Below, piece after piece: positions 49,047 through 55,220 of a stretch of DNA of 64,000 bases. Positions within the stretch are counted from its first letter, which is position 1. The number at the start of each line of letters is the position of its first letter. A program made the position numbers and the translations under genes. This stretch comes from Bacillus sp. ISL-41. Its GTDB lineage: Bacteria; Bacillota; Bacilli; Bacillales; Cytobacillaceae. The notes beneath the pieces were generated by a model. The model worked only from the letters and a program-made list of their open reading frames with translations. It had not been told where the DNA came from and did no database searches. The stretch is from assembly GCF_018613235.1 (NCBI RefSeq), contig NZ_JAGGQP010000052.1:8342-72341 (forward strand). The letters run 5' to 3'.

Positions 49047-50054
49047 TTAATTCAATCCAGACAGCTGATTCCGATCGTCAGCCATTGGTGGTTCCTCCAG
49101 CCAAGAATTTTGGATCATAATATTGGCCCCATCCTCTGCATACAGGGCTATCTCAGGAATCAGCGAAGCATATTTCATCCCTATATCCTTTCGCGGACTT
49201 GCAGCCATGGCGGCTCCATAGTTCCCAATCCCTGCGGCAATCATGGCGGAAATATGAAATAAGATGAGCTTATCTGAAAAAACCTGAGTTGTACTGTCTG
49301 TTACAGCGGCATCCCAAAACATTGGAGCTGGAATATCATTGTTCTTGAGGATGTCACTAAACAAGTCGACATGTTTTTGAGCGATTTTCTTCCCTCTCTG
49401 CAAATATGCCTTGACCTCTTTGTCCTGCGCCACTTGCATGAATCCCATGATTAATGCTTTCCCTATTTGGTTTGTTTGTATATTCATAAATAAATGAGTG
49501 ATTTCAACTGAGGTCAGTGCACGTCTCCTGCTTTTGATTCCGGAAAGGAATTTTTGTTTCTCAACAAAGTCAACCTTATCCGGAACTGAAATATAAGGCG
49601 GCCTGATATAAGTCCCTTGTTCCAGCATTAACTCCCTCGTCGAATCCTGGAGACCGGCCGCAGATTTCAAAACACTTTTATGCAGCGATATCACATCCGA
49701 GCGAGTTCCAAGGCCAATTGCCGCACAATTTGCTGTCATTCCGAGTATCGACATATGTCTGAGATACATCAAGACAAAAGTATCTGAGAAAAGCCGTGGT
49801 GCGTGGATATTCACATCTTTCTTAGTGAAACCAACTGGGCAGGGAAAGTCTTCACGATCGAATATCTCCTTTAAAAGAGAGATATTTTTTTGTGATGCGC
49901 CAATAGCAAACTCAACAATTTCTTTAACCTTTTTGTCGTCTACGCTGTTCATAAAATAGCTTAATACACAAACTGAGACTGTATCGTTTATATATTGTGT
50001 CCACAAACTAGACATTTCTGCGGCAGTCAGCCGGATTTTTGTCTTGTCCTCCAT
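49047..50054 (-). CDS. DUF3231 family protein
   Basis: A 335-residue soluble, nearly all-helical protein made of two homologous halves: LTAAEMSSLWTQYINDTVSVCVL...FPCPVGFTKKDVN resembles LTSVEITHLFMNIQTNQIGKALI...IPAPMFWDAAVT. This duplication is typical of DUF3231, which has a ferritin-like or coat-protein (CotF)-like look and is common in spore formers. Function unknown. GAGGTGTG precedes the ATG. Confidence 0.82.
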   Translation of the reverse strand: MEDKTKIRLTAAEMSSLWTQYINDTVSVCVLSYFMNSVDDKKVKEIVEFAIGASQKNISLLKEIFDREDFPCPVGFTKKDVNIHAPRLFSDTFVLMYLRHMSILGMTANCAAIGLGTRSDVISLHKSVLKSAAGLQDSTRELMLEQGTYIRPPYISVPDKVDFVEKQKFLSGIKSRRRALTSVEITHLFMNIQTNQIGKALIMGFMQVAQDKEVKAYLQRGKKIAQKHVDLFSDILKNNDIPAPMFWDAAVTDSTTQVFSDKLILFHISAMIAAGIGNYGAAMAASPRKDIGMKYASLIPEIALYAEDGANIMIQNSWLEEPPMADDRNQLSGLN

Positions 50055-50215: not shown

Positions 50216-51781
50216 ATGGATATAGGATTCAAATTAGGAGTGAGCAAGCTGGATGCTATTATAATATTAATCATTGCGGCTGTTAGCGTATCACTGACAG
50301 TCAATTTAATCAGATTCCATGTAAGCGCTTTTCTGAATCAATTGCTCTTCTCTGTCTCATCATTGATCGTTATTGAGCTTTCTGTTTATCTGAATGGAAT
50401 TGATCATTTAAAATGGAGTATCTTATTATTTATCGCGACAGCCGGTTATTCCTTTAAATTAAAAGGAGGTATTTTAGCAGCCATATTCAGCATGCTTCTC
50501 GTTTTTTTACAAACAGAAGGAGCTGCTTTAGTTCTTTTGCCGGTATATTTGCTAATCGGGACGATTTCCGGCTTTATCTCACAATATTTACTGAATAAGA
50601 AAAAAGATCATAATCGCTGGCTCAATATGCTTATGGAGCAATCAAAGCATTTACAAGTCTTTCGAGAAGTGAGTACAACGATGCAGCGCACCCTGCAGCA
50701 GGATTTACTTTTAAAAGTAATCCTGACATCTGTTACCGCCGGTCATGGCCTTGGCTTTAACAGAGCAATGATTTTCCTTGCTTCTAATGAGGAAAAGTCG
50801 CTTAAAGGGATCGTAGGTGTTGGCCCTATGGATGTGAGGAAAGGCTATGAAGTTTGGGAAAAGATTTCAGAAAACAGGTTAAAGCTCAGCGATTTAATTG
50901 AACACAATTTTGACAGCAACTTTACCGACCCGGAACTGAATGCTCTTTTGCGTTCATTGGAAATCCCAATTGATGAACATAATGTGTTCGGATTAGCGCT
51001 GTCAAGGCAAAAACCAGTTATAGTCAAGGGCATCCAGAAAGAGGATACCTCACAAGTTTTAATCTTTGAATTGTTCCAAACTGAGGAGTTTGCAGTGATT
51101 CCGCTGATTAACCAGGGAAAGAATATTGGGATCCTTCTTATTGATAATATTGTTAATAAGAGACCTATTACATTGATGAATACAGAAGATATCCTCCCTT
51201 TGGCTAACCAGGCGGCGATTGCACTTGATCATGCGAATCTCTATGAGCAGATCGAGGAAATGGCTTTGCGGGACGGGTTGACCGGTCTTCTTAACCAGCG
51301 GGCATTCCAGACAATTCTTAATGAACATTTTCCGATTGAAGGAGAAGGGGCAGTTCCCCTTTCGTTAATCATATTTGATATCGACTTCTTTAAAGTTTTC
51401 AATGATAAAAATGGTCACCTGCTTGGAAATGAAGTCTTGATGAAGCTGGCGAGAGTAATTGAGGGTTCATTAAGACCAGGAGATTTTTCCTTCCGTTTTG
51501 GCGGAGAAGAATTTGTTGTCCTTCTTTCCGGAACCAATTTGGAACAAGCTGAAATTATTGCTGAAACCATTCGTTTGAACGTTGAAAAGACAAGCTTTCC
51601 CGGGGAAAAAGCTCAGCCCAATGGCACTTTAACTGTGAGTGTTGGAACAGCTTGTACAGACCATTCTGCCATTAAAAGTAAAAATGAGTTAATTGAAGCC
51701 GCCGACCAGGCCCTTTACAAAGCTAAAAATGCAGGCAAAAATACAGTAGTTTCTTTTAAGGAGTTCGTGAGCATTGATTGA
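50216..51781 (+). CDS. membrane-anchored GAF-GGDEF diguanylate cyclase
   Basis: Signalling protein of 521 residues. About four to five membrane segments span residues 12-130, a GAF-like domain lies at about 150-330, and the GGDEF domain at about 345-515 has RFGGEEF with DIDFFKVFNDKNGH upstream, so it should synthesise cyclic di-GMP. The I-site is intact (RPGD five residues before GGEEF), unlike the other cyclase in this window. The ATG at 50216 has no ribosome site; TTAGGAG lies inside the frame at about 50233, which leaves the exact start open. It overlaps the next gene by eight bases. Confidence 0.83.
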   Translation: MDIGFKLGVSKLDAIIILIIAAVSVSLTVNLIRFHVSAFLNQLLFSVSSLIVIELSVYLNGIDHLKWSILLFIATAGYSFKLKGGILAAIFSMLLVFLQTEGAALVLLPVYLLIGTISGFISQYLLNKKKDHNRWLNMLMEQSKHLQVFREVSTTMQRTLQQDLLLKVILTSVTAGHGLGFNRAMIFLASNEEKSLKGIVGVGPMDVRKGYEVWEKISENRLKLSDLIEHNFDSNFTDPELNALLRSLEIPIDEHNVFGLALSRQKPVIVKGIQKEDTSQVLIFELFQTEEFAVIPLINQGKNIGILLIDNIVNKRPITLMNTEDILPLANQAAIALDHANLYEQIEEMALRDGLTGLLNQRAFQTILNEHFPIEGEGAVPLSLIIFDIDFFKVFNDKNGHLLGNEVLMKLARVIEGSLRPGDFSFRFGGEEFVVLLSGTNLEQAEIIAETIRLNVEKTSFPGEKAQPNGTLTVSVGTACTDHSAIKSKNELIEAADQALYKAKNAGKNTVVSFKEFVSID

Positions 51782-53330: not shown

Positions 53331-54377
53331 TCACTTTAAATTTCCAATAAAATTGAGTGTATCTGCACTTGCTATACTCGAAGGATTATCAAGAATTTTT
53401 TTAACATCATTCAAGGTGTCCTGGAGCTTTACAAACTCTCCCTTCTTGCCAGTAAAAGCTTCGGCAACAAAGAATGGCTGAGTCAGATAGGCTTCCAATT
53501 TCTCCCCCTGCTGATAAATTTGCGATTCTGAGGCTGGCAGGCGCCCGATACCATGGACATTGACAATCGAACGCAATTCTCTATACCTGCGTAAAAGCTT
53601 TTGAGCTCTCTGTTGAATGCTGTGATGTACAGGGTCTAAATAGGACCCTTCTAAGATGGAGGAAGTGGAGTAGATTGGGTTGACTGCAGGGTACTTATGG
53701 CGAGCTGCAAGATCCGCATCAAATTGCCACAAAGTATCAAGTGGCCCATACGGAAGGTCCTCATCGACAGTCTCACCTTTTAAGTCTATCAGGAAAGTAG
53801 TTACACTGCTGACTCCTTTGTCATCAAAGGTTTCCTGCAAAGTGAACATCTCGCCTGATATGACATAAGACCTGTCGACTGTAAATGCATAATCTTTTTC
53901 TATACCTTCTCTAAGCATGATCTTAAATGTCTCTTCAATATTGTTTGTAACATAATCAACGTCTTCCAGAACATCTTCTAACTCAGGGTGATTCCCTGAA
54001 GGTTTAATGAGGATGGTCACATACCCTTCTCGTTTCATTCGATATAACATTTCTGCGAGCACCACTAACTGCCCCATCCCCGGCCTTGCAACGAGCCCAA
54101 CGGTTCCCCCTTTTGAAATTGGGGCAAATAGATCCAAAGTTTTTATGCCAGTTTCTATCATTTCCACACTCTCCCCTCTTAAAATCAGTTCATCCAAACT
54201 GCAGCCAGCAAGTTCTGCAAGAGCTACTATTGTCCGTACCTCTGCCCTCCCGACCGGTATTTTACCGGTAGATAAATTCGAAACGGTTGCAGGTCTAAGG
54301 CCAACTGACTTAGCTGCTGACGTCAAATTTGGAACCTTTTTTCTAAGTAACGCTACATTCAATCTAATATTTTCCAT
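53331..54377 (-). CDS. XRE-like HTH domain fused to a degenerate ATP synthase beta-subunit domain
   Basis: A 348-residue protein. Residues 1-66 form an XRE/Cro-type helix-turn-helix (LTSAAKSVGLRPATVSNLSTGKIP). From residue 72 the sequence follows F1-ATPase beta: ETGIKTLDLFAP (75-86), KGG (89-91), YPAVNPIYSTSSIL (229-242, in place of YPAVDPLASTSR), RYRELRSI (264-271) and TQPFFVAEAFTGKKGEFVKL (299-318). The P-loop GGAGVGKT is replaced by ARPGMGQL (97-104) without the Lys-Thr, the DELSEED region is lost (GRLPASES), the beta-barrel is absent and the centre is about 45 residues shorter. It is not a catalytic subunit; a regulator is inferred. The ATG at 54377 has AGGAGG 8 bases before it. I do not recognise a described family. 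Confidence 0.8.
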   Translation of the reverse strand: MENIRLNVALLRKKVPNLTSAAKSVGLRPATVSNLSTGKIPVGRAEVRTIVALAELAGCSLDELILRGESVEMIETGIKTLDLFAPISKGGTVGLVARPGMGQLVVLAEMLYRMKREGYVTILIKPSGNHPELEDVLEDVDYVTNNIEETFKIMLREGIEKDYAFTVDRSYVISGEMFTLQETFDDKGVSSVTTFLIDLKGETVDEDLPYGPLDTLWQFDADLAARHKYPAVNPIYSTSSILEGSYLDPVHHSIQQRAQKLLRRYRELRSIVNVHGIGRLPASESQIYQQGEKLEAYLTQPFFVAEAFTGKKGEFVKLQDTLNDVKKILDNPSSIASADTLNFIGNLK

Positions 54378-54412
54378 TAATTCCACCTCCTTACTTTTGA
54401 TAGTAATTTACT

Positions 54413-54450
54413 TTACTTTAAAAAGCAATTAAAATTGCTTCATAAAGTAA
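54413..54450. promoter_or_regulatory. 38-bp interrupted palindrome, candidate operator
   Basis: Two nested inverted repeats share one centre: TTACTTTA (54413-54420) with TAAAGTAA (54443-54450), and AAGCAATT (54423-54430) with AATTGCTT (54433-54440). Only the two spacer bases between the arms and the central pair break the symmetry. It lies 36 bases upstream of the HTH/F1-beta start and in the divergent spacer before the PduL-type gene, which suits an autoregulated operator. No T-run follows, so a terminator is less likely. Confidence 0.7.
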
Positions 54451-54656
54451 TTTTAATTTCCTTGAAAAGAGTGTTTATTGCAGAACGCAGGGTAAACTAA
54501 TTTAAAACAAAGGCAGATTTCGCTTCATTTCTTGCTTTTAGGATAAATACAGTTCCCGCTTCTTTGATCTGCCGAACTGTTTTTGAAAATGCAAGGCGAA
54601 GCAACAAAATTTACGAAACAGAGAGAAAACAAACAAAAGTTAAAAGGAGAGATTGT

Positions 54657-55220
54657 ATGATTCCAATCGGTGTATCAAACCGGCATATTCATTTGAAAAG
54701 AGAGGATTTAAATCAGCTTTTTGGTAAAGGATATCAGCTCACGACAGCTAAAGAGCTTTCACAGCCGGGGGAATTTGCAGCCAATGAAACAGTTAGGGTC
54801 CTTGGTCCAAAAGGACAATTTCCGGAGGTCAGGATACTTGGTCCTCTGAGAAAGTTCACCCAGCTTGAAATTTCCAGGACTGATTCCTATTCGCTTGGTG
54901 TAAAAGCACCATTAAGGGCTTCAGGGAATATCGAAGGAACTCCGGGTATAAAACTTGTCGGGCCAAAAGGAGAACTGGAAATACAGGAAGGCGTCATTAT
55001 TGCGGAACGGCATATACATATGACAACTGGAGACGCTTCCAAGTTTAATGTGAAAGATGGAGAGTATGTAAGTGTTAAATGTAACGGAGAAAGAAGCTTA
55101 ACCTTCAATCAGGTTCTCATAAGGGTAAGAGATTCCTACGCTCTCGATATGCACATTGATACAGATGAAGCGAACGCAGCAGGTTTGCGAACGGGAGACC
55201 ATGTTGAAATAGTTAAATAA
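54657..55220 (+). CDS. pduL: PduL-type phosphate propanoyltransferase/acetyltransferase
   Basis: Zinc-dependent phosphotransacylase of 187 residues that interconverts an acyl-CoA (propanoyl or acetyl) and acyl phosphate, structurally unrelated to Pta. The two half-barrels show the paired metal motifs: GVSNRHIHL (H10, H12) and IAERHIHMT (H119, H121), plus the arginine-rich RVLGP and RILGP segments. There is no microcompartment-targeting extension and there are no shell genes nearby, so it acts as a free cytosolic enzyme. AAAAGGAGAG precedes the ATG at 54657; the upstream frame has no site. It is divergent from the HTH/F1-beta gene. Confidence 0.88.
   Translation: MIPIGVSNRHIHLKREDLNQLFGKGYQLTTAKELSQPGEFAANETVRVLGPKGQFPEVRILGPLRKFTQLEISRTDSYSLGVKAPLRASGNIEGTPGIKLVGPKGELEIQEGVIIAERHIHMTTGDASKFNVKDGEYVSVKCNGERSLTFNQVLIRVRDSYALDMHIDTDEANAAGLRTGDHVEIVK

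Follow-up and report, generated by a model that had tools for sequence, protein, structure and literature searches.

Domain organisation of the HTH-F1-beta protein

The window analysed here, a stretch of 64,000 nucleotides from Bacillus sp. ISL-41 (contig NZ_JAGGQP010000052.1), encodes a 348-residue protein in which a Cro/CI-type helix-turn-helix (HTH) is joined to a domain derived from the beta subunit of F1-ATPase (F1-beta; AtpD). We refer to this protein as HTH-F1-beta; its gene and the palindromes upstream of it are the subject of this report. The gene and its two domains are located as follows.

53331..54377, minus strand: HTH-F1-beta gene, 348 amino acids plus stop codon
54180..54377, minus strand: N-terminal Cro/CI-type HTH, residues 1–66
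53334..54176, minus strand: F1-beta-derived domain, residues 68–348, without beta-barrel; P-loop Lys-Thr replaced by Gln-Leu, GER loop lost, D168 kept

The F1-beta part accounts for approximately four fifths of the protein, at its C-terminal end. Homology to AtpD spans residues 68–347 at ~30% identity and covers the nucleotide-binding core and the C-terminal domain; the alignment begins at AtpD residue 149, and the N-terminal beta-barrel is absent. Against the AtpD equivalog profile (TIGR01039) the protein scores 122.6 bits, below the cut-off of 462.85. A fold match assigns the N-terminal part to the Cro/CI type. The XRE/Cro-CI HTH family PF13443 gives 15.8 bits with the window protein, below its cut-off of 22, and is matched by 32 of the 55 aligned HTH-F1-beta members at E ≤ 0.01 (E, expect value). 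Since a sequence-profile search of the HTH part against the PDB returned a single match, at E 0.84, the HTH assignment stands on the fold and the weak Pfam matches. The fusion first observed in a sequence-only reading of the window is confirmed, with a profile match of its C-terminal part to F1-beta and a DNA-binding-type fold in its HTH part.

F1-beta residues lost and retained

Few known enzymes are as highly conserved as F1-beta. Residues were compared in an alignment of 55 HTH-F1-beta sequences and 14 AtpD-type rows (alignment A1 left out the loci L061, L065 and L096). The P-loop GGAGxGK[TS] is replaced by A-R-P-G-M-G-Q-L, with the lysine substituted by glutamine in 55/55 sequences and the Thr/Ser by leucine in 54/55 (methionine in 1/55). 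The GER loop has given way to other residues and is in part deleted: at its glutamate most sequences have D (27), E (14) or N (7), with other residues in the rest, and at its arginine mostly H, the alignment being uncertain here; gaps fill the three columns that follow in 55/55. The arginine of the DNIFR motif aligns to a gap, and conservation is also lost in the DELSEED columns. Loss of the P-loop Lys-Thr, the beta-barrel and DELSEED had been noted in the sequence-only reading, and is borne out by the comparison with AtpD.

Other positions are retained. The Walker-B aspartate (D168) is present in 55/55 sequences, Y229 is a tyrosine in 37 sequences and a phenylalanine in 18, F302 is conserved in 52/55, A305 is found in 55/55, F308 is F or Y in 54/55, and T309 is T or S in 55/55. 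With reference to F1 structures, we take the columns of Y229, F302, A305, F308 and T309 to form the adenine side of the nucleotide pocket. By its aligned residues the domain is judged to be catalytically dismantled: the adenine side appears to survive, the phosphate side does not. Retention of the adenine-side residues may serve the fold, because they belong to a well conserved stretch. Invariant residues are present in both the HTH and the F1-beta domains.

Homology over the nucleotide-binding and C-terminal parts might allow the F1-beta part to bind the real ATP synthase, through its alpha subunits, and so to report on or modulate that enzyme. We consider this very improbable, as the barrel, which forms the alpha/beta crown, is absent, identity to AtpD is ~30%, and no recurring neighbour cluster was identified as alpha-like, although no profile search was aimed at alpha genes.

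Distribution and selection

Named genomes were scanned and yielded 76 loci, of which 57 (L040–L096; hereafter the named loci) belong to the HTH-F1-beta family; the other 19 are partial matches from Planctomycetes and Omnitrophota, AtpD-type where looked at. The 57 named loci are related to one another and do not represent 57 independent cases; all but L096, which is broken, contain a single unbroken open reading frame (ORF; 56/57). Among the hosts named are Mesobacillus, Neobacillus, Halobacillus, Evansella, Gottfriedia, Fictibacillus, Paenibacillus, Cohnella and, in a single record (L093), Clostridium. In this last record the gene, which adjoins an amidase gene, has 37% G+C in a locus of 29% G+C, a difference that suggests a likely transfer. 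The locus titled Chryseobacterium sp. ISL-80 (L043) is placed inside the Mesobacillus clade of the tree, so its label is probably wrong. One copy, at 54.8%, lies on a plasmid of Paenibacillus cellulositrophicus and is annotated as 'hypothetical protein'.

At genus level 15 of 21 genomes carry the gene, with the G011 copy split by a frame change, and at family level a full or nearly full copy is found in 61/193 genomes (G011 included), G049 having a fragment. Within a sample of the class, 19/398 genomes match at E ≤ 1e-40, of which 16 lie outside the genus and represent eight other families. Partial matches account for two of the 19 (G502, with an open frame of 259 amino acids, and G528, cut by the end of its contig).

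Seven Mesobacillus-type sequences were compared in 21 pairs. In the four pairs whose dS was unsaturated, the ratio of nonsynonymous to synonymous substitution (dN/dS) for the whole gene was 0.086, 0.065, 0.066 and 0.118. For the HTH part, comparison of the window with the six others gave 0.021–0.045, values that are rough given a dS of up to 2.6. By these ratios the gene is judged to be under purifying selection, and the proposal of a conserved, selected, non-catalytic fusion is upheld.

The patchy distribution, the lack of stable neighbours (below) and the presence of broken or partial copies (G011, a second copy in G162, L096 and G049) would be consistent with an accessory gene that is partly decaying and does little more than regulate itself. 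The low dN/dS (0.065–0.118), the unbroken ORF in nearly all named relatives and the invariant residues of both domains argue against this, and we hold it to be improbable. Nor is the gene a rare decaying fusion of one strain: homologues occur across the family, though with broken copies in some strains.

No confirmed relative was found among viral contigs (47 pattern stretches). Phage records gave 21 matches, all below 60% identity, and each of the 15 listed begins no earlier than residue 60, which is what a match to AtpD would give; a phage origin was rejected. A role in defence was also rejected, PADLOC giving one weak match (E 0.018).

A palindrome array upstream of the gene

A 16-bp palindrome, TTRCTTTWWAAAGYAA, is found upstream of HTH-F1-beta genes, mostly in two to four copies per promoter and usually 21–23 bp apart. 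In the window the following features precede the gene; the sites are predicted, and the promoter elements are putative.

54435..54450, minus strand: operator-like site 1, TTACTTTATGAAGCAA
54413..54428, minus strand: operator-like site 2, TTGCTTTTTAAAGTAA, overlapping a putative −35 element TTGCTT (54423–54428)
54391..54406, minus strand: operator-like site 3, TTACTATCAAAAGTAA, overlapping a putative −10 element TACTAT (54400–54405)
54386..54390, minus strand: ribosome-binding site GGAGG, from sequence

The −35 and −10 elements are separated by a spacer of 17 bp; this promoter was not among the listings of a consensus scan. The sequence-only reading had pointed to a palindrome at 54413–54450; the operator-like array on the gene's own promoter has three sites.

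Sites were counted, at a chosen score threshold, in 58 upstream stretches of 130 bp (the window and the 57 named loci). Two to four sites are present in 48/58 stretches, five in three, one in four (L061, L062, L065 and L096) and none in three (L053, L059 and L066). The 109 spacings between neighbouring sites are 22 bp (55), 23 bp (19), 21 bp (15), 24 bp (6) or other values (14). In total 164 sites were observed, compared with 25.1 in a shuffle control; this control is partly circular, as the scoring was written after viewing the upstream sequences and the shuffle preserves single bases only, and for this reason better evidence comes from testing the model, as described below, on loci not used to train it.

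In most aligned arrays, as in the window, sites 2 and 3 overlap the putative −35 and −10 elements, an arrangement typical of repression. Site 1 is placed further upstream, beyond the −35 element, and some Cro/CI-type proteins both activate and repress; an activator or anti-activator is thus conceivable, but on the placement of sites 2 and 3 we regard this as unlikely.

Co-occurrence of array and gene

The array was modelled from 36 aligned arrays (model R1, a sequence-only model; alignment A2, made up of the window and 35 named loci that were selected for the regularity of their arrays; alignment A4 comprises 36 of the N-terminal stretches). In the genus, a strong array lies directly upstream of the gene in 15/15 gene-bearing genomes (E ≤ 1.6e-10), and in 0/6 gene-free genomes (best E 0.037). 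In the family, where stricter filters lose some weak matches, E ≤ 0.001 is reached in 58/193 genomes. These comprise 56 of the 61 that carry the gene, the fragment genome G049, and G091 (E 7.2e-5), the only match in 131 gene-free genomes. Of these 56 arrays, 55 are within 25 bp of the gene; the remaining one (G182) heads a hydrolase–regulator pair. R1 does not match the other five genomes that carry the gene (G113, G128, G151, G152 and G154), but each has two sites, 21–22 bp apart, just upstream of it.

In the class sample all 13 whole-gene loci to which R1 was applied (L168, L170–L181) match at E ≤ 3.7e-5, covering seven families besides the gene's own (f18, f22, f23, f31, f34, f37 and f55); one of them, L173, is identical with L086 of the training rows, and the array of L180 is at an operon head. 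There is no match at the truncated L166. Among the named loci, 46/57 match just upstream of the gene at E ≤ 3.1e-8 (35 training rows and 11 others), and in L053, L059, L066 and L096, whose operons begin with another gene than the regulator, R1 matches before an amidase gene (E ≤ 3.9e-7). The remaining seven give weaker matches (E 2.9e-4 to 0.26), with two or three consensus sites each. A strong array persists beside the broken gene copy in both G011 and G162.

R1 matches elsewhere are few (G178, G096, G091, G015 and G049). In G178 a second array (L183, 2990–3059; E 8.2e-9) precedes a gene named by eye as an M3/PepF-like peptidase, which is a possible extra target in this one genome. Weak arrays (~7e-5; L185, 2639–2692, and L184, 3541–3594) precede an ORF that resembles adenine deaminase, likewise named by eye; the genomes concerned are G096, which has the regulator gene, and G091, which is without it. 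The match in G015 (L165; 2.9e-4) is without a clear target gene, and that in G049 (8.9e-4) is on a different contig from the fragment.

These extra arrays, in particular the one in a gene-free genome, and the fact that binding of the protein to the array is a prediction, leave room for the array to be that of another regulator, global or local, of which HTH-F1-beta would be a target while acting elsewhere. The array, however, tracks the gene in its own family and in the seven others, gene-free relatives are nearly all without it, and 16-bp dyads suit an HTH of the C2/SinR type; we therefore think this improbable.

A genome-wide regulon built from single sites was rejected, as in the window's own genome 16-mer matches with up to two mismatches number 44, the same as for the reversed control (44); tandem matches there are confined to the gene's own promoter. 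Within the window, a perfect TTACTTTTAAAAGTAA at 50705–50720 falls inside a GGDEF-type ORF (50216–51781; named by eye); it is single and in coding sequence, and is probably due to chance.

Arrays at operon heads and neighbouring genes

In six loci another gene comes ahead of the regulator gene, and the array lies at the head of the operon, before an acetamidase/formamidase-like or hydrolase gene. Besides the four named loci above, these are L180, where it precedes an amidase gene, and L186, where it precedes a hydrolase gene overlapping or directly adjoining that of the regulator; all six lie outside the training rows. A gene of the acetamidase/formamidase family adjoins the regulator gene in 7/57 named loci (L053, L059, L066, L086, L087, L093 and L096) and in L180, and PF03069 was assigned to both amidase-type neighbours scanned. 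This neighbour occurs in at least three places in the tree, which holds six of the seven loci (L096 is not in it). An alpha/beta-hydrolase lies between amidase and regulator in L059 and L180, and in interrupted form in L066; in L186 it directly precedes the regulator. The three intact hydrolases (L059, L180 and L186) are 51–54% identical. Overall, neighbours vary by genus and none is stable; within the family, a general linkage to amdA was not seen by position.

In the window the divergent neighbour is the following gene, to which we give no target status.

54654..55220, plus strand: PduL-type phosphate propanoyltransferase

The sequence-only reading had proposed that HTH-F1-beta controls this phosphotransacylase. 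As a general function this was rejected: PduL is the divergent neighbour in only 4/57 named loci, all in the Mesobacillus-type clade, and the array occurs with the HTH-F1-beta gene or its operon, not with pduL.

Proposed mechanism

We read the computed domain make-up, conservation, array, co-occurrence and operon-head placement as those of a one-component regulator that most probably represses its own transcription and has a catalytically dismantled F1-beta as its effector domain, and assign this a probability of approximately 0.7. Its SinR/C2-like HTH would bind as dimers to the row of TTRCTTTWWAAAGYAA palindromes; binding of the array by the protein is inferred from the co-occurrence of array and gene and from the operon-head position of the array where the gene is not first. 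Predicted binding usually covers the −35 and −10 elements of the gene's own or its operon's promoter, and this overlap points to repression. In place of the beta-barrel crown the protein has its HTH, and the residues kept and lost suggest that the F1-beta part probably functions as a ligand sensor and/or oligomerisation platform, and not as a motor. In some lineages the same array stands at the head of an operon that encodes an acetamidase/formamidase-like enzyme, an alpha/beta-hydrolase or both, which suggests that a small compound of amide or ester type may be the inducer; a nucleotide-like ligand is the other candidate. Nothing in the analysis pointed to acetyl phosphate or the alpha/beta ring, which the sequence-only reading had named beside adenine nucleotides as what the domain may sense.

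A more speculative model, which we consider rather unlikely, would convert an F1 ring into a DNA-bound sensor. Here an F1-like oligomer would carry its HTHs as a crown, with six subunits on three phased palindromes, and the half-kept pocket would bind an adenine-like metabolite or an F1-targeting natural product, freeing the promoter of the regulator and hydrolases.

Relation to known systems

HTH-F1-beta shares with AtpD (TIGR01039; PF00006) the nucleotide-binding core, C-terminal domain, Walker-B aspartate and adenine-side aromatics, and differs in having an HTH for a crown, Gln-Leu for the P-loop Lys-Thr, and neither beta-barrel, GER loop nor DELSEED. Its HTH fold is that of SinR, CylR2, P22 C2 and C-protein XRE regulators, but its effector is F1-beta and not a peptide-binding, protease or dimerisation domain. 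Autoregulated Cro/CI-type repressors have dyad sites over their own promoter, and the sites overlapping the promoter of the HTH-F1-beta gene resemble this arrangement. The G1/F1-like ATPases of Mycoplasma (MMOB1670, MSC_0618) also represent F1-beta paralogues in another use; their annotation is that of ATPase subunits in motor complexes, and they are not known to carry an HTH. The fold-match list also includes HppE/HEPD/MPnS-type enzymes, in which an HTH-like fold is joined to an enzyme fold; these are non-haem iron enzymes unrelated to F1-beta.

A literature search, with subscription papers mostly outside its coverage, found no HTH regulator with an F1-beta effector domain, and passages of PMC5882156 make no mention of ATP synthase. 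One-component HTH regulators are known; what is new is the F1-beta effector domain together with the array of 16-bp palindromes. F1-beta has apparently been turned into a regulator's effector domain across a patchy but wide set of Bacilli, and its likely operator is mapped here. If this is correct, a sensor derived from ATP synthase joins the effector domains of one-component regulators, and HTH-F1-beta reveals what F1-beta retains once catalysis has been dropped; better annotation would follow, for example for the plasmid copy.

Among minor observations, a pair of genes of ~450 and 866 amino acids recurs downstream of the regulator in Neobacillus-type loci (L048, L049, L051, L052, L076 and L094), and presumably resembles Hen1/Pnkp RNA repair. 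Elsewhere in the window, 49047–50054 encodes a 335-residue protein, seemingly of two similar halves, which we take to be DUF3231-like.
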